The position numbers and the translations under genes were made by a program. 34,049 bases of DNA from Planctomycetota bacterium (GTDB taxonomy: Bacteria; Planctomycetota; Phycisphaerae; UBA1845; Fen-1342), in contig JACRLV010000030.1 in NCBI GenBank assembly GCA_016235145.1, positions 1 to 34,049 on the forward strand, in the 5' to 3' direction. Position 1 is the stretch's first letter. Each line of letters opens with the position of its first letter. The notes under the pieces are model-generated. The model did not search any database and was not told where the DNA came from. It was given only the letters and a program-made list of their open reading frames with translations. Positions 1,967 to 34,049 of the stretch are shown here, one piece after another.

Positions 1967-2224
1967 GTGGATTTGAAACAGGCGGCACAGGCGGTAGATG
2001 GGCGGACGGCGCGGGCTTTTGTGAGCGCGGCGCGGCATTTCATTGACGCGCTGCTGATCGAGGGGCAGCGCGTGGCGAGCACGGCGACGCCGCCGGCGGG
2101 CGGCTGGCTGAGCTCGGAGGAGCTGCGCGGGGCGACGCAACGGATGTCGGAAGCGATCGCGGCGGAGCGGTGGGTGGACGGCGCGCTGGCGGTGGTGCGG
2201 GTGCTGGTGTTGTTGGGAATTTGA
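1967..2224 (+). CDS. hypothetical protein (phage block)
   Basis: 85 aa ORF preceded by 'agaaaggagttactgtg', a good SD with a GTG start. Confidence 0.6.
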   Translation: MDLKQAAQAVDGRTARAFVSAARHFIDALLIEGQRVASTATPPAGGWLSSEELRGATQRMSEAIAAERWVDGALAVVRVLVLLGI

Positions 2225-25740: not shown

Positions 25741-26787
25741 TTATTGTGCCGGCGTTTGCGATTCGAACAAGCCCGGCGGCTCATCCGATGTGCGCGGCTG
25801 TGCGAGCCCGAGGTGTTCGTACGCGGCCGGGCGGGCCTGGCGGCCGCGCGGCGTTCGAATCACAAAGCCGAGTTGCAGCAGATAGGGCTCCACCACGTCT
25901 TCGAGCGTGTCGCGCTCGTGTCCCATCGTCGCGGCGATCGCCTCGATTCCCGCGGGTCCGCCGTCGTAGTGGCGCATCAACGCCTGAAGATAGCCGTGGT
26001 CGAGCGAATCCAGGCCCAGCGAATCGATTTGCAGAATATCCAGTGCGGCGTCGACGACCTTCGGCGTGAGCGTCCCATCGCCCCTGACCTCCGCGTAGTC
26101 GCGCACCCGCCGCAGCAGGCGATTGACGATGCGGGGCGTGCCGCGCGAGCGCGAGGCGAGCCGGCACAGAGCGGCGGCATCCGCCGTAATCCGCAGCCGC
26201 TGGGCCGAGCGCGAGGCGATCTCCGTCAGCTCATCGACGGTGTAGTACTGCATGTGGAAGAAATGGCCGAACCGCCCGCGCAGCGCCGCCGAGAGCATGC
26301 CGGCCCGCGTCGTCGCGCCGATCAGCGTGAACGGCTTGAGTGCGAAATTCACGGTGCGCCCGCCGATGCCGCTGTCCGTCGTGAAATCCACGCGGAAGTC
26401 CTCGAGCGCCGGATAGAGGAACTCTTCGATGACCTTGTTGAGCCGGTGAATCTCGTCGATGAAGAGAATGTCGCCGTGCTCCATTTGCGTGAGCATGGCC
26501 ATCAGGTCGCCCTGCCGCGTGATGGCCGGTCCGCTGGTCTGCCGCACGGTCGCGCCCATTTCCGTCGCGATGACGTGGGCCAGCGTGGTCTTGCCCAGGC
26601 CCGGCGGCCCGTCCAGCAGGATGTGGTCGAGCGGTTCGCGGCGGCCCTGCGCGGCCTGAAGCGCGATCGTGAGCTGCTGCTTGACCCGCTCCTGCCCAAT
26701 GCACTCATCCAGCCGCTGCGGGCGCAGCGAGGTGAGGTATCGCTCTTCGTCCGGTCCGGGCGATGTGAACACGCGGTCGATGGCCAT
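25741..26787 (-). CDS. ruvB: Holliday junction branch migration helicase RuvB
   Basis: 'RPQRLDECIGQERVKQQL', Walker A 'GPPGLGKTTLAHVIA', 'ILFIDEIHRLNKVIEEFLYPALEDF', 'FTLIGATTRAGMLSAALRGRFG'. Confidence 0.97.
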   Translation of the reverse strand: MAIDRVFTSPGPDEERYLTSLRPQRLDECIGQERVKQQLTIALQAAQGRREPLDHILLDGPPGLGKTTLAHVIATEMGATVRQTSGPAITRQGDLMAMLTQMEHGDILFIDEIHRLNKVIEEFLYPALEDFRVDFTTDSGIGGRTVNFALKPFTLIGATTRAGMLSAALRGRFGHFFHMQYYTVDELTEIASRSAQRLRITADAAALCRLASRSRGTPRIVNRLLRRVRDYAEVRGDGTLTPKVVDAALDILQIDSLGLDSLDHGYLQALMRHYDGGPAGIEAIAATMGHERDTLEDVVEPYLLQLGFVIRTPRGRQARPAAYEHLGLAQPRTSDEPPGLFESQTPAQ

Positions 26788-27019
26788 GCGGCGGATTATC
26801 GCCGCTGCGGCGGCTTTCGCCAGACGGGGCGGGGCGCAAGGTGAACAGAGCGCTCAAGCCGGACGCCAATCCGCCGCCACCGTCCCACATGGTCCCGTTT
26901 CACTCTCTCGGCCGTTCGCGGTATTCTTCGCGGCGCGTCGCAGCGTTCGTTTGCACCGTCCGTCGGACGGTCGCGCCGCGGCTCTGTCCACGCTGCGGGC
27001 CCGCGCCCGCGAGACCTCC

Positions 27020-29419
27020 ATGCACGCCTTCAGAGCTGTCTCTTCATCACTCCTTGTCGCTATTTCAATTTTCGCACAACCGCTACCGCCCGTCGCGGCC
27101 GCGTCGGCGACTGACGAGCCGGCGATCATCCCGCGGCCGACCGCCATCGAGCCGGGCGTCGGTTCGTTCACGATTCGACCCGACACCGCGCTCCACGTGC
27201 AGGCCGAGGCTGCCCAGCCGGTCGCTGCATATCTGGCGGACCACATCGCCGCCGCAACCGGCATCCGCCTTGCGCCGAAAGCCGGGCCGGCCGACGCAGG
27301 CGCCGGCAACGTGATCTTCCTTGCCATCGCCGCCGGCGAGGGCGGCAACGAAAGTTATGAGCTGCGCGTATCCGAGACCCGCGTCGAGCTGCGGGCGCCT
27401 TCGCCTGCGGGGCTGTTTCGCGGAGTTCAGACGATTCGCCAGCTATTGCCGCTGGCCGCCGCGGCGGCTTCCGCTCCCGCCGAGCCCGCTCCAGCGCAGC
27501 TCGCGGCGGTCAGAATCGCGGACTCGCCGCGCTATCCGTGGCGCGGCATGCTGCTGGATTGCGGGCGTCACTTCGTCCCCAAGGACATGGTGAAGCGCTA
27601 CATCGATCTGCTCGCCTACCACAAGATGAACGTCTTGCACTGGCACCTGACCGAAGATCAGGGCTGGCGAATCGAGATCAAGAAGTTTCCGAAGCTGACG
27701 GAGGTCGGCGCGTGGCGGACGGCGACGCGCGATTCGGAGCAGCCGCGCGACGGGCAGAATCGCTACGGCGGCTTCTACACCCAGGACGACATTCGCGAGA
27801 TCGTCGCGTATGCACAATCGCGCTTCATCACCGTCGTGCCGGAAATCGAATTGCCCGGACATTGCCGGGCGGCGCTGGCGGCCTATCCCGAATACTCCTG
27901 CACCGGCGGCCCCTTCAAGGTCAGAACGGATTGGGGCGTCGAGGACGACGTCTACTGCGCCGGGAGCGACAAGACTTTCGACTTTCTCCAGGCCGTGCTG
28001 ACCGAGGTGATCGAGCTCTTTCCGTCGCCGTGCATTCACATCGGCGGCGACGAGTGTCCGAAAGCCCGCTGGAAGAACTGCCCGATCTGCCAGCAGCGGA
28101 TCAAGGCGGAAGGCCGGAAGGACGAGCGCGAACTTCAGAGCTACTTTGTCCGGCGAATCGAGAAGTTCCTGAACGAAAAAGGCCGCCGGCTGATCGGATG
28201 GGACGAAATCCTCGAAGGCGGCCTGGCGCCGAACGCGACGGTCCAGTCCTGGCGCGGCATGGAGGGCGCGATCGCCGCGGCGAGCGCCGACCACGACGTG
28301 ATCTCTTCGCCGACAAGCCACTGCTACATCGATTATTCGCAGGGGGCAGGGATCGACGAGCCGCGCCTCATGGGTTTCGTGCCGCTTGAGCGGTGCTATC
28401 AGTTCGAACCGACGCCCGAATCGCTGCCGCCGGAAAAAGCCGATCACATCCTGGGCCTTGAGGGCAATCTGTGGACCGAGCATGCGCCGCCTGCGCTGCT
28501 CGATCGCCAGGCGTTTCCGCGCCTGCTGGCATTGGCCGAAGTGGGCTGGACCGCGAAGCAGCGGCGAGATTGGCCTGACTTTCAGCGCCGGCTAAAATCC
28601 CACTATCCACGGCTGGATGCCCTCGGCGTGAATTACTATGTGCCGACTCCGACGTTCAAACTGGCCACGGGTGCTGCCGGACCGAACGGCGAATTCGATC
28701 CCGCCTCGCTCACTGCGGCCGGCGGCGTGACGGCCATCACCGACAAGCCGCGAAAACTGGTGATTCAGGCGAACTCGGCGGGCGAGATCCGCTTCACCGT
28801 GGACGGCTCGAACCCCACCGCGGACTCCCCAAAGTACGCCGGCCCGATCGACGTGGCCGACTCCGCCATCGTGCGGGCCCGTTCGATTCTGCCGACCGGC
28901 AACGCGGGCGCAATCGGCGAGCTGCGCTTCGTCAAGGTCGCGCCGCTCGATCCGACGCAGGCGACCGCCGGCGAGGCGGGCGTGGCGGTCGACGTCTACA
29001 AGGGCACCTGGAAGCAGCTTCCTGATTTTTCCAAGCTCACGCCCGCGGCGAGCACCGTGCTGCCCGGTACTGAAACCGATCCGGTGATCCGCGAAAACGC
29101 GATCGCCGACCTGGATACGCAGTTTGCGCTTCGTTTCCGGGGTCTGTTCAAGGCTCCAACCGAAGGCCTATACACCTTTGCACTGCGCTCCGACGACGGC
29201 AGCCGGCTCACGATCGGCGCGACGGTGGTGGCGGACAACGACGGCGAGCACCCCGTGCGGCAGGCGGTGGGATACGCCTGGCTTCGGGCGGGCTATCATG
29301 CTCTCACCGTCGAGTACTTCCAGGGCATCGGCGGACGCAAGCTCGAATTGCTTGTGGACGGACCGGGAATGAAAGCTGGCCCTATCACTGGAGCGTCGCT
29401 TTTCGTCGAGAAGAAATGA
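27020..29419 (+). CDS. GH20 beta-N-acetylhexosaminidase with C-terminal PA14-like domain
   Basis: 'YPWRGMLLDCGRHFVPKDMVKRYIDLLAYHKMNVLHWHLTEDQGWRIEIKKFPKLTEVGAWR', 'HIGGDECPKARW'; C-terminal 'FRGLFKAPTEGLYTFALRSDDGSRLTIGATVVADNDGEH'. Confidence 0.93.
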   Translation: MHAFRAVSSSLLVAISIFAQPLPPVAAASATDEPAIIPRPTAIEPGVGSFTIRPDTALHVQAEAAQPVAAYLADHIAAATGIRLAPKAGPADAGAGNVIFLAIAAGEGGNESYELRVSETRVELRAPSPAGLFRGVQTIRQLLPLAAAAASAPAEPAPAQLAAVRIADSPRYPWRGMLLDCGRHFVPKDMVKRYIDLLAYHKMNVLHWHLTEDQGWRIEIKKFPKLTEVGAWRTATRDSEQPRDGQNRYGGFYTQDDIREIVAYAQSRFITVVPEIELPGHCRAALAAYPEYSCTGGPFKVRTDWGVEDDVYCAGSDKTFDFLQAVLTEVIELFPSPCIHIGGDECPKARWKNCPICQQRIKAEGRKDERELQSYFVRRIEKFLNEKGRRLIGWDEILEGGLAPNATVQSWRGMEGAIAAASADHDVISSPTSHCYIDYSQGAGIDEPRLMGFVPLERCYQFEPTPESLPPEKADHILGLEGNLWTEHAPPALLDRQAFPRLLALAEVGWTAKQRRDWPDFQRRLKSHYPRLDALGVNYYVPTPTFKLATGAAGPNGEFDPASLTAAGGVTAITDKPRKLVIQANSAGEIRFTVDGSNPTADSPKYAGPIDVADSAIVRARSILPTGNAGAIGELRFVKVAPLDPTQATAGEAGVAVDVYKGTWKQLPDFSKLTPAASTVLPGTETDPVIRENAIADLDTQFALRFRGLFKAPTEGLYTFALRSDDGSRLTIGATVVADNDGEHPVRQAVGYAWLRAGYHALTVEYFQGIGGRKLELLVDGPGMKAGPITGASLFVEKK

Positions 29420-29508
29420 ATCACGCAGGCCCGGACGCTTCCGCGCCATTCTCGTCGAACGCCGACGCCGAAGCGCTCAGATCCAACGCCCAATCTTCGG
29501 AGGATTCC

Positions 29509-31473
29509 ATGAACCGATCCTGTCTAAGCTGCTCCGCCGCTCTGCTGCTGAGCGTCGCCCCACTCGCATCGGGCAACATTCGGCTGCCCGCAATCTTCGC
29601 CGACAACATGGTCCTCCAGCGCGAGACCGAGGCGCCGATCTGGGGCTGGGCCGCGCCCGGCGAGCAGGTGGTCATTCGCGGCGAATGGTCGAATCGCGAC
29701 GTGAAGGTCGAGGCCGGACAGGACGGCCGCTGGAACGCGAAGCTGCCGACCGGTGCGGCGGGCGGCCCCTATTCCCTGACCATCCGCGGCCAGGACACCG
29801 TGACGCTCAAGAACGTGATGCTCGGCGAAGTCTGGATCTGCTCCGGCCAATCCAACATGGAATGGACGGTCGGGCCGGCAGTCGGACCTGGGATCGCGCA
29901 CCACGTCGAGGAAATCAAGGCCGCCGATCATCCGAATGTCCGCCTCTTTACAGTGGCCAAGGCGCGATCCAAGAAGCCCGAGGCGGACTGCTCCGGCAAG
30001 TGGCAGCCTTGCTCGTCCGAGTCGGTGAAACCGTTCTCCGCCAGCGCGTATTTCTTTGGCCGAAAGTTGAACCAGGAACTGAACGTCCCCGTCGGCCTGA
30101 TTGCCACCAGTTGGGGCGGCACTGAGGTCGAGTTGTGGATCAGCGAGCCGGGAATGCGCAGCGATCCGGAGCTGTCCGCCGCAATTGAAGGCCGCGCCAA
30201 GGCGAAGGAAGACTACAAGAGCAACTTCGCCGCGTGGGTTCAGGCGTGCCAGAAGGCGGACCCGGGTTGGGACTCGTGGGCGGCGCCGGCGATGGACGAC
30301 GCGAGCTGGACGCCGCTGCCCCAGCTCACGCTGTGGGATCGGCAGGATCTCGGCAACTACGACGGAACGGCCTGGTATCGCGGAAACTTCACCGCCCCGG
30401 CGGATTGGAACGGCAAGCCCGCGATGCTGGAACTCGGCGCGATCGACGACCTCGACGTCACCTGGATCAACGGCCAGCAGGTCGGCGCCACCGATAGCTA
30501 CTCCATTCAGCGCTCGTACGCGATCAAACCCGGCGTGATCAAGCCCGGCGAGAACACGATCGCGATCCGCGTGCACGACTTCATCGCACAAGGCGGATTC
30601 ACGCTATCCGAGGGCCAGCCGTGTCTGCGCTGCGGCGACAAAGCGATTTCGCTCGGGCCGTGGCGGTACAAGGTCGGCGTGGAGCAGAAGAAGCTCAAGC
30701 CGCCGCCGCAAAACGCCGCGAGCGAGAACTCCGTGCTGTACAACGCGATGATCGCGCCGCTGGTTCCGCTGGCGATTCGCGGGGCGATCTGGTACCAGGG
30801 CGAGTCGAACGTCTTTCGGGCGCAGCAGTATCGCCGGTCATTTCCGCTCATGATCGCGGATTGGCGCAAGGCGTGGGGCCGCGGGGATTTTCCGTTCTAC
30901 TTCGTGCAGATCGCGCCGTTCGACTATCACGCATTTCGTGCCAGCGACCCCACCGACACCTGGCCGCACCCCGGCGCCGAGTTGCGCGAAGCCCAGCGGC
31001 TGAGCCTGTCGACGCCGAACACCGGCATGATCGTGACCACCGACATCACCGACGACGTCAAGAACATCCATCCGTCGAACAAGCAAGACGTCGGAGCGCG
31101 CTTGGCGTTGTGGGCGATGAAACACGATTACGGCCGCGACGTCGAATGTTCGGGCCCGCTTTACAAGTCGATGGCCGTCGAAGGAGGCAAGATTCGGCTG
31201 CATTTTGACCACATCGGCGGCGGCCTGGTCGCGCGCGACGGCGAGCTGCGCGAGTTCACCATCGCCGGCGCGGACAAGAAATTCGTCGCGGCTCAGGCGA
31301 AGATCGACGGCGACTCGATCGTCGTCTCGTCGCCCGAGGTGAAATCGCCGCTGGCGGTCCGCTTCGGCTGGACGGATACGTCTACCCCGAATCTCTTCAA
31401 CAAGGCCGGGCTGCCCGCGTCGACGTTCCGCACAGACGAGTGGCCGGTTTCGACGGACGGGGTGAAGTGGTAG
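29509..31473 (+). CDS. sialate O-acetylesterase family protein
   Basis: 'PAIFADNMVLQRETEAPIWGWAAPGEQV', 'MLGEVWICSGQSNMEW', 'GLIATSWGGTEVELWIS', 'IRGAIWYQGESN'. Confidence 0.92.
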   Translation: MNRSCLSCSAALLLSVAPLASGNIRLPAIFADNMVLQRETEAPIWGWAAPGEQVVIRGEWSNRDVKVEAGQDGRWNAKLPTGAAGGPYSLTIRGQDTVTLKNVMLGEVWICSGQSNMEWTVGPAVGPGIAHHVEEIKAADHPNVRLFTVAKARSKKPEADCSGKWQPCSSESVKPFSASAYFFGRKLNQELNVPVGLIATSWGGTEVELWISEPGMRSDPELSAAIEGRAKAKEDYKSNFAAWVQACQKADPGWDSWAAPAMDDASWTPLPQLTLWDRQDLGNYDGTAWYRGNFTAPADWNGKPAMLELGAIDDLDVTWINGQQVGATDSYSIQRSYAIKPGVIKPGENTIAIRVHDFIAQGGFTLSEGQPCLRCGDKAISLGPWRYKVGVEQKKLKPPPQNAASENSVLYNAMIAPLVPLAIRGAIWYQGESNVFRAQQYRRSFPLMIADWRKAWGRGDFPFYFVQIAPFDYHAFRASDPTDTWPHPGAELREAQRLSLSTPNTGMIVTTDITDDVKNIHPSNKQDVGARLALWAMKHDYGRDVECSGPLYKSMAVEGGKIRLHFDHIGGGLVARDGELREFTIAGADKKFVAAQAKIDGDSIVVSSPEVKSPLAVRFGWTDTSTPNLFNKAGLPASTFRTDEWPVSTDGVKW

Positions 31474-31486
31474 TGAAGGAATGAAA

Positions 31487-31528
31487 CCGCCCCGCCGATT
31501 GCGGGTATCGCATCCGGCGGGGCGGCGT
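31487..31528. terminator. bidirectional Rho-independent terminator
   Basis: CCGCCCCGCCG (31487-31497)/CGGCGGGGCGG (31515-31525); plus strand followed by cgttttc, minus strand followed by TTTCATTCC. Confidence 0.75.
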
Positions 31529-31560
31529 TTTCGGCTGCTGTGGCAGCCACGTTCGCTGCA

Positions 31561-31596
31561 TCACAGCAGCTTACGACAACTACCTGTATCTGCCAC
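31561..31596 (-). CDS. candidate 11-aa ORF (MADTGSCRKLL) with extended Shine-Dalgarno
   Basis: Minus strand GAAAGGAGGTGGTCC-GTG GCA GAT ACA GGT AGT TGT CGT AAG CTG CTG TGA; SD core 6 nt from the GTG. Confidence 0.4.
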   Translation of the reverse strand: MADTGSCRKLL

Positions 31597-31798
31597 GGAC
31601 CACCTCCTTTCGCACGGGCAGGAGTCCCACCGGGGCCTGTGACAGTAAGCCACCGGCAGGCTTGGCCCCGCCTGTCGACCGTCGCCGACAGGCACAACGC
31701 CCGGCGGATCTCACCGCCGCTCGGCCGACGCTCCACGGATCGGACGCACGCGCCCATTCTTGCGGCGCCCGAACCCCGCTTCGCGTCTGCACTATTAG

Positions 31799-31826
31799 CT
31801 TATACGCGCTTTTGCCTGCGCGGCAA
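31799..31826 (-). promoter_or_regulatory. sigma70-type promoter for the candidate small transcript
   Basis: Minus strand TTGCCG (31826-31821) - 16 nt - TATAAG (31804-31799). Confidence 0.45.
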
Positions 31827-32056: not shown

Positions 32057-34045
32057 CTACGTGCCGAAATTCGCCAGCAGCAACGCCAGATCCTGAAGCG
32101 TCACGCAATTGTCGCCGTCGAAATCCACGGCCGGATCGAAGTTGGGATCGGGAGCGCAAATGCCGAAGTGCGCCAGCAAGTTCGCCAAATCCTGAATGTC
32201 CACGTCGCCGTCGCCGTCCGTGTCGCCGACCACGCCCGGTTCGCAATGCCAGCGCGCCAGATAGCCCGACACGTCGCCGCCGGCGATGACGAATTCGCCG
32301 CCGAGCAGCACATCGTCTCCGAGCGCGCCGAATGCGTGGACATACGAATCGGTCCCGCCATCCAAATCCTGCCAGACGCCGCCCACGGTGCGCGCCAGGT
32401 ATGGATTCGGGAAGATCGGATCGACGAGATCGCCGGCCACGTACAGCGCGCCGTTGTGCGAATAAACCTTGCTGATGTAGTTCGGCATCGCGCCGCCGAG
32501 GTTCGTCCAATGCGAACCATTCCAAGCCGCCACACCGAACATTGCAGGCGCTCCGGAGCGGGTGAAGTCCCCACCTGCCACCAGCAGCCCCTCATGCACC
32601 GTCAAGCTCTTCACGGCAGAGAATGGGCCGCCCAGTCCGCTGCCCAGCGCGGACCAATTCGCCCCATTCCACGCGGCAATATTGGTGACGGCGGTTCCGC
32701 CAGCGTCGGTGAAATCACCTCCGACCACGAGCAACCCGTTCCATTCGACCAGCGCCCACACGGGCCCATTCACGCCGCCGCCGACCGGAAACCAGTTTCC
32801 AGCGACAAGCCGGACGATGTTGTGCAAGTTCGCGCCGAGTGCCAAGGTCGCCCCCGCGGCGTAGAGATTGCTATTGTATTCGGCGAGCGCGACAACCTGC
32901 GGATGATTCGGCCACGCCCCGAGCCCGCCGTCGATCGCCAACCAACTCGTGCCATTCCAGGCCGCAATGCCGTCGGTGTCGGCGACACTGGCGAGTTGTC
33001 CGGGCCCGCCGACCACAAAGAAGCCTTGGAATTCAAGTCCGCAAGCCGGCGTGTTGAGGAGTCCCGGCGCAAAGGGCTGCCACGCCGCGCTGTCCCAGCG
33101 CGCGATGTAGTCGCTCTCCGCGCCGTCCAGCACCTTGAAGAAGCCCATCGCAACCGGCTGGGCCTGGTACGACGCGAAATCCGCCACCCAGTCGTTCGTG
33201 CCCCCGCCCATCGCAAACCAGTTCACACCGCCGAAGCGGGCGATGTTGGTGACGCCTTTGCCACCGGCCTCGCGGAATTCGCCCAGCACGATCAGATCGC
33301 CGTTGTAGCTGACGAGCCCTTCGATATCGATGTAATGGGGAGCGCCGGGAACCTCCTGCCACGCCGCACCGTCCCAGCGCGCCAGGCCGTCGGCGGAACC
33401 GCTCGCTTCGCCGGCCATGTAGAGTTCGTTGTTGTGAACGACCAGATCGTATGCGACGCTCGAATGGACACCCATGTCGAACCAGCTATTGCTGTTCCAA
33501 CGCGCGACGTCGTCGACCGCCTGACCGCCGGCATCGTCGAAGCTGCCCAAAGCGTAGATTTCATCGTTGAACAGGACCAGCGACTCCACGCGGGCATTAC
33601 CGCTGCTGCGCGTGACGCCGCCGCCCAAATCGAACCAGCGTGTCCCGTCCCAGCGGGCGACGTTGTTCACGGGCGTGGTATCGGCGGTCGTAAACTCGCC
33701 GCCGACGAAAACTGAACTGGCTCGCAGGGCAAGCGCATTGACCCTCGCCGAGTCATCGATGTTGTTGACCCCGCCGGCGGTTTGCTCCCAGTTGGTCCCC
33801 GTCCAGGAAGCCAGGTTTTTCGCGAGGGTTCCGCCGATCGAATCGAAATATCCCCCCACCAGCAGCTTTCCGTCGTACTCGACCATTGCATTGATCATTA
33901 CGGAGGTCGTGTTCCCCAGGTCCGCCCAGCGAGAGCCATTCCAGCGCGCGATATCGCTCGCGCGTACGCCGCCAGCCTCGGTGAAATCGCCGGCGACGAT
34001 CAGCTCGTTACCGAAGACCGCAAGGGCCGTCACTTCAGGAAACAA
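32057..34045 (-). CDS. large repeat (propeller/delta-60-like) secreted protein with dockerin-like C-terminus, 5' end possibly outside the window
   Basis: Repeated 'GGDFTDAGGTAVTNIAAWNGANWSALGSGL'-type units; tail 'GDTDGDGDVDIQDLANLLAHFG...VDFDGDNCVTLQDLALLLANFGT'. Confidence 0.8.
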   Translation of the reverse strand: MFPEVTALAVFGNELIVAGDFTEAGGVRASDIARWNGSRWADLGNTTSVMINAMVEYDGKLLVGGYFDSIGGTLAKNLASWTGTNWEQTAGGVNNIDDSARVNALALRASSVFVGGEFTTADTTPVNNVARWDGTRWFDLGGGVTRSSGNARVESLVLFNDEIYALGSFDDAGGQAVDDVARWNSNSWFDMGVHSSVAYDLVVHNNELYMAGEASGSADGLARWDGAAWQEVPGAPHYIDIEGLVSYNGDLIVLGEFREAGGKGVTNIARFGGVNWFAMGGGTNDWVADFASYQAQPVAMGFFKVLDGAESDYIARWDSAAWQPFAPGLLNTPACGLEFQGFFVVGGPGQLASVADTDGIAAWNGTSWLAIDGGLGAWPNHPQVVALAEYNSNLYAAGATLALGANLHNIVRLVAGNWFPVGGGVNGPVWALVEWNGLLVVGGDFTDAGGTAVTNIAAWNGANWSALGSGLGGPFSAVKSLTVHEGLLVAGGDFTRSGAPAMFGVAAWNGSHWTNLGGAMPNYISKVYSHNGALYVAGDLVDPIFPNPYLARTVGGVWQDLDGGTDSYVHAFGALGDDVLLGGEFVIAGGDVSGYLARWHCEPGVVGDTDGDGDVDIQDLANLLAHFGICAPDPNFDPAVDFDGDNCVTLQDLALLLANFGT

Positions 34046-34049
34046 GGTT

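Follow-up and report, generated by a model that had tools for sequence, protein, structure and literature searches.

The window analysed here, a 34,049-nt stretch of DNA from a Planctomycetota bacterium, raised the question of whether the gap between an esterase-like gene and a beta-propeller gene harbours an RNA gene of its own and, if so, what such an RNA could do. A preliminary description of this gap had proposed a small gene or regulatory RNA on the minus strand, to be checked by conservation and covariation in relatives, and had listed a promoter, a structured leader, a Shine-Dalgarno (SD) tract, a short open reading frame (ORF), a hairpin and a terminator. We found each of these elements at its place within a unit spanning positions 31826-31486 (minus strand). 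The esterase-like gene (29416-31473, plus strand), which carries the Pfam SASA domain and a galactose-binding-like domain, is convergent with the RNA gene, and the beta-propeller gene (32057-34048, minus strand) lies upstream on the same strand as the RNA. In addition, a gene for a GH20-type hexosaminidase (26669-29419, plus strand) overlaps the start of the SASA-type esterase gene by 4 nt. The hexosaminidase and esterase genes probably form an operon for glycan degradation, which converges on the RNA gene.

Elements of the locus and their independence from the neighbouring genes

All the elements described here lie on the minus strand. Transcription would start from a sigma-70-type promoter, TTGCCG-16-TATAAG (31799..31826), whose boxes are located at 31826-31821 (TTGCCG) and 31804-31799 (TATAAG). 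About 187 nt of leader separate TATAAG from the SD tract. The 5′ part of this leader folded into hairpins (P1/P2 region, 31694..31792) that were less conserved, although a AAAATGGGC hairpin loop was recurrent there within the window's own order. It is followed by P3 (31670..31693), a 10-bp hairpin with a GACG tetraloop (31683-31680), and by the P4 domain (31613..31669), which extends from P3 to the SD and displays UCAC in its apical loop. The full-length SD tract GAAAGGAGGTGGTCC (31597..31611) precedes an 11-codon mini-ORF, MADTGSCRKLL (31561..31596), with a GTG start and a TGA stop. The stop codon is overlapped by the P5 hairpin (31534..31570), in which GCTGCTGTG (31570-31562) and CACAGCAGC (31542-31534) form the outer stem and GCAGC-GAACGTG-GCTGC the inner one. 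The unit ends in an intrinsic terminator (31486..31526) with a weak U tract in the window genome; the terminator itself was as anticipated, but its GC stem comprised 13 bp in the fold instead of the 11 bp initially claimed. The fold of the whole RNA yielded a z of -5.6 against dinucleotide shuffles, and those of the terminator and P5 yielded z values of -5.5 and -3.5, respectively, against shuffles.

A short ORF followed by hairpins that might pair in two ways and by a terminator could also be read as a leader peptide with an attenuator of a downstream gene. We consider this very improbable, since the downstream gene is convergent in the window and, among 21 loci whose surroundings were compared, the next gene was found about as often on one strand as on the other. 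Neighbouring genes were common to close relatives only, and no downstream gene was shared beyond those. A cis-acting leader of any kind was likewise rejected by synteny, as these 21 loci presented no conserved same-strand gene immediately downstream. The promoter and the terminator were conserved. A TTGAC(C/G)-16/18-TATAAT-like promoter was present at the same distance in 28 out of 28 aligned copies, and scores of at least 9/12 were reached by 59% of 71 loci but only 1.4% of control windows. Similarly, a terminator was detected in 82% of the 71 loci and in 4% of the controls. Because the neighbours are unconserved, the next gene may lie on either strand, and both promoter and terminator are conserved, the RNA is, as judged from sequence comparison, a stand-alone gene with its own promoter and terminator and not a leader.

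We also observed that the terminator stem CCCGCCGG/CCGGCGGG was nearly letter-identical in many family members (e.g., L002, L010 and L012). This recurring stem resembles a lineage-wide terminator word, and the letters of the P3 stem are similar.

Distribution and structural conservation of the family

The searches for the family covered Planctomycetota genomes. BLASTN with the 340-nt unit produced clear matches in the same family and order, which were concentrated on the SD, the ORF and P5. R1, a covariance model restricted to the 3′ half of the unit, had hits in 99 out of 299 genomes from the class, with further hits in other classes within the phylum. A second model (R2), which comprised P3, P4 and the SD and was built from 42 diverse copies, matched 42 out of 48 genomes in the window's order, with one strong copy per genome. 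The same model matched 79 out of 249 genomes in a class sample and 87 out of 393 in a phylum sample (Planctomycetota), each of these genomes again containing a single strong match. As R2 is weak outside the window's own order, the detection rates there are probably underestimates. Within that order, a few good-quality genomes presented no R2 match (G008, G027, G029, G032, G036 and G055). When 20 of the weakest R2 matches were inspected, nearly all of them contained an SD and a short ORF; at least one match, L205 (E = 2e-5), looked like chance. The named records carrying the family were Phycisphaerales, Phycisphaerae and Planctomycetota MAGs. The elements recurring across the phylum were the promoter, P3, P4, the SD, the start codon, the short ORF, the stop-codon hairpin and the terminator.

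In an alignment of 42 sequences, 95.5% of the P3 cells were paired and compensatory changes occurred in all eight pairs tested, while the inner helix of P4 was paired in 84.8% of the cells and showed compensatory changes in five out of five pairs. The covariation score was 0.563, compared to 0.240 (sd 0.016) in shuffled controls and at most 0.159 in slid ones, both of which model phylogeny only partly. GACG loops closed by stems of 5 bp or more were observed 59 times in 72 loci when 1.3 were expected, which represents a 45-fold enrichment. Many members carried a second GACG or GAACGTG hairpin 46-65 nt past the SD. GC-rich genomes readily give stable folds, and GC-rich hairpins could in principle have been assembled by chance around an SD-like word; phylum-wide conservation and covariation refute this explanation, which is almost certainly wrong. 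Both checks on relatives thus bore out the proposal of a small gene or regulatory RNA. Altogether, these comparisons provide good support for a real RNA gene, single-copy and of about 300 nt, that reaches distant families of Planctomycetota.

The P5 hairpin presented a more intricate pattern. Its GCTGC/GCAGC segments were nearly invariant, and the bases just inside them changed in a paired fashion, the substitutions in the outer stem being compensatory. The four segments permit two pairings, 1:2 plus 3:4 or 1:4 plus 2:3, and covariation favours 1:4. The consensus returned by RNAalifold for P5 (1:2 and 3:4) was judged an alignment artefact, since the spacers of the 1:4 pairing covary. The alternative pairing would make a two-state switch at P5 possible. 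In much of the window's family, the stop codon immediately precedes the conserved portion of P5, and elsewhere, as well as in the window, it is located 1-2 codons inside. Because the position of the stop relative to P5 differs, the geometry between ribosome and P5 would also differ among members.

The SD tract, the mini-ORF and their possible function

The preliminary description had noted that the SD tract can pair along its whole length with a 16S tail, counting one G-U pair. The 16S tail of the relatives, GGAUCACCUCCUUUC, confirmed this, being complementary to the window SD tract with one G-U pair in the window genome. The relatives carry AAAGGAGGTGATCC(A) as their SD, which complements the 16S tail over up to 15 nt; the window copy, which is followed by GTG, carries GGTGGTCC, hence the one G-U pair. 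Within the window, the SD 15-mer has no second copy, and 0.04 sites would be expected even if two mismatches were allowed. It is also the sole exact copy in the whole genome, with one further site carrying one mismatch. Among 41 relative genomes, 37 contained the exact 15-mer GGATCACCTCCTTTC, in most cases at one or two sites. Those of its sites whose context was read corresponded only to the 16S 3′ end or to the antisense strand of the RNA gene, and two lay at contig ends.

The proposed masking of the SD by the upstream GGACTCCT did not stand. That sequence exists but is peculiar to the window genome, and sequestration based on it was rejected for lack of conservation, as CTCC was present upstream in only 8 out of 72 relatives. 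The P4 loop presents a UCAC(C) that is complementary to the GGUGA of the SD, with a weak match to the SD in the window. TCAC was found in the P4 loop of 35% of all 72 loci versus 7% expected, the enrichment being found mainly in the window's order. Within this order, the P4-loop UCAC(C) would be a better candidate for SD masking than GGACTCCT, and its putative pairing with the SD hints at a control of initiation. As a separate observation, the P4 apical loop (31650-31632, minus strand, in the window) often reads (GA)UCACC in own-order relatives, which are the letters of part of the 16S tail.

Regarding the mini-ORF, a start codon was present in 70 out of 70 distinct loci (GTG in 43, TTG in 15 and ATG in 12), its distance to the first G of GGAGG being 11-12 nt in most cases. 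An ORF of 5-20 codons followed in 69 out of the 70 loci, compared to 5.5% of random windows. The ORFs ranged from 6 to 18 codons and their length differences were in whole codons, with all three stop codons being used at equivalent positions. The frame-wise substitution ratio was 0.49 for frame 0 and 0.40 for frame 2; the former is no lower than the latter because the RNA structure (P5) overlaps the ORF. In view of its conserved start, stop and length, the mini-ORF is likely translated.

Some members deviated from this pattern. The usual stop position was lost in L063 and L181, whose ORFs reach 14 and 26 codons, respectively, and which are possibly natural variants or degenerating copies. In L086 (about 2011-2106, minus strand) and L198/L186, two copies from a single family, the peptides were far longer and different (MSNLSQDLKRIHDRTLRR and MMNLSQDFVMESNDGLLR) and the 3′ hairpin region was rearranged, with P3, P4 and the SD being retained.

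If the mini-ORF is translated, the micro-peptide could itself be the product, either secreted or intracellular, and the RNA structure would merely control its synthesis. The conserved SD, start and stop agree with this idea, as do the residues DC(T/M)(K/R)GL(H/R), recurrent in one family, and the RGG or RRW(L/V) endings found in others. However, the peptides diverge widely in both sequence and length across the phylum (compare MKGDKR with MSNLSQDLKRIHDRTLRR), and the codons that recur fall on the strand that forms P5. We regard a peptide product as improbable.

The reading that we favour, to which we give about even weight, is that of a dual-function regulatory RNA coupled to translation, which would signal in trans either the availability of ribosomes or termination. 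Base-pairing of up to 15 nt between the unpaired SD tract and the 3′ end of 16S would capture a 30S subunit, which would then translate the ORF of 6-18 codons (11 in the window). Since the stop codon is located at or just inside the 5′ arm of P5, that arm would be covered by the ribosome during termination, and the formation of P5 with its GA(A)CG loop would thus depend on ribosome occupancy. The GACG-loop hairpins P3 and P5, which flank the SD and the ORF, are the likely places at which a partner, either protein or RNA, would bind. As the proposed output step, the signal would be passed in trans by the RNA. We infer transcription, translation, the ribosome-P5 switch and the output in trans from sequence alone.

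Part of the same evidence could also be accounted for by a ribosome decoy, that is, an idealised mini-mRNA that would use the 16S tail to occupy or titrate free 30S subunits, as a ribosome-directed counterpart of 6S RNA, with an incidental peptide. Maximal SD complementarity is retained phylum-wide, the 15-mer is otherwise just the 16S tail where checked, the ORF is short and variable in sequence, and the promoter is strong and conserved. Yet a decoy needs no conserved start, stop, whole-codon ORF length or stop-codon hairpin, all of which have been kept, and it would require a very high abundance of the RNA; we find it unlikely. Beyond the dual-function regulatory RNA preferred here, and only as a tentative and rather doubtful proposal, the family might be a ribosome-directed, phylum-wide housekeeping RNA, in which a mini-mRNA with optimal 16S pairing would sense or buffer free 30S subunits and signal via the GACG-loop hairpins as a translation-side counterpart of 6S RNA.

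A structured single-copy RNA that has been kept phylum-wide probably does something central, in a group with little RNA biology. The near-exclusive complement of the 16S tail ties this RNA to the ribosome and poses the question of whether a tiny ORF allows the cell to gauge how available its ribosomes are. A direct starting point is provided by the covariance models and the named relatives.

Comparison with known systems

Rfam 15 at the gathering score produced no match over the RNA element in the window and nine relatives. At permissive E-values, the element and 10 distant relatives yielded only sub-threshold matches to CC2171 over the element. CC2171 (RF01867), a Caulobacter sRNA, was the top Rfam match in four distant relatives, scoring 26-37 bits where the cut-off is 75 (maximum of 37 in L083), and gave no match in the window itself. 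The likeness consists of GAAAGGAGGUGAUCCAGUG, a full-length SD followed by GUG and a short frame, and a GC-rich terminator, the match being owed chiefly to the SD/start word and to the latter. The window also has a full-length SD followed by GTG, but the gathering cut-off was not reached. Unlike the planctomycete RNA, the CC2171 model in Rfam starts at the SD and includes neither a P3/P4 domain nor GACG hairpins.

In combining RNA structure with a very short frame, the planctomycete RNA is reminiscent of tmRNA. This identity (RF00023) was rejected, as the window gave no match and the true tmRNA is a separate gene (G000:C68:4205-4602). Leader-peptide attenuators share the short ORF, a stop overlapping hairpins that might be alternative, and the terminator that follows, but they have a regulated downstream gene, which the planctomycete RNA lacks at the 21 loci compared. 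Guanidine-II (mini-ykkC) riboswitches resemble it in their two small hairpins with CG-containing loops near the SD. Their loops are ACGR and lie upstream of a guanidine-related gene, whereas the planctomycete loop is GACG closed by Y-G and no such downstream gene exists; with no Rfam match at the gathering score either, identity with Guanidine-II was discarded. The Rhodopirellula-1 motif, which has no Rfam accession, is assigned to Proteobacteria and Planctomycetes and described as probably cis-regulatory (PMC2864571). A description of the family was not found in the literature, taken as open-access texts without supplements. The RNA family is previously uncatalogued, in that it lies beyond the Rfam 15 models at the gathering score, Rhodopirellula-1 being considered here by its description alone.

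In Staphylococcus aureus, extended, start-codon-proximal SD:anti-SD pairing, which includes small ORFs, is a genome-wide initiation rule (PMC13009471). In contrast, the perfect 15-mer occurs only in the planctomycete RNA gene, besides the 16S tail on the other strand. Finally, sRNAs with short ORFs and dual-function sRNAs have been surveyed with a lower limit of 10 aa (PMC5521070). The planctomycete RNA resembles them in being a stand-alone structured transcript with a strong SD and a plausible translated short ORF, and its sequence and conservation indicate that it has its own promoter and terminator. It differs from those surveyed in that the ORFs of many members fall below 10 aa and in that the SD, the ORF and the flanking hairpins are conserved phylum-wide.
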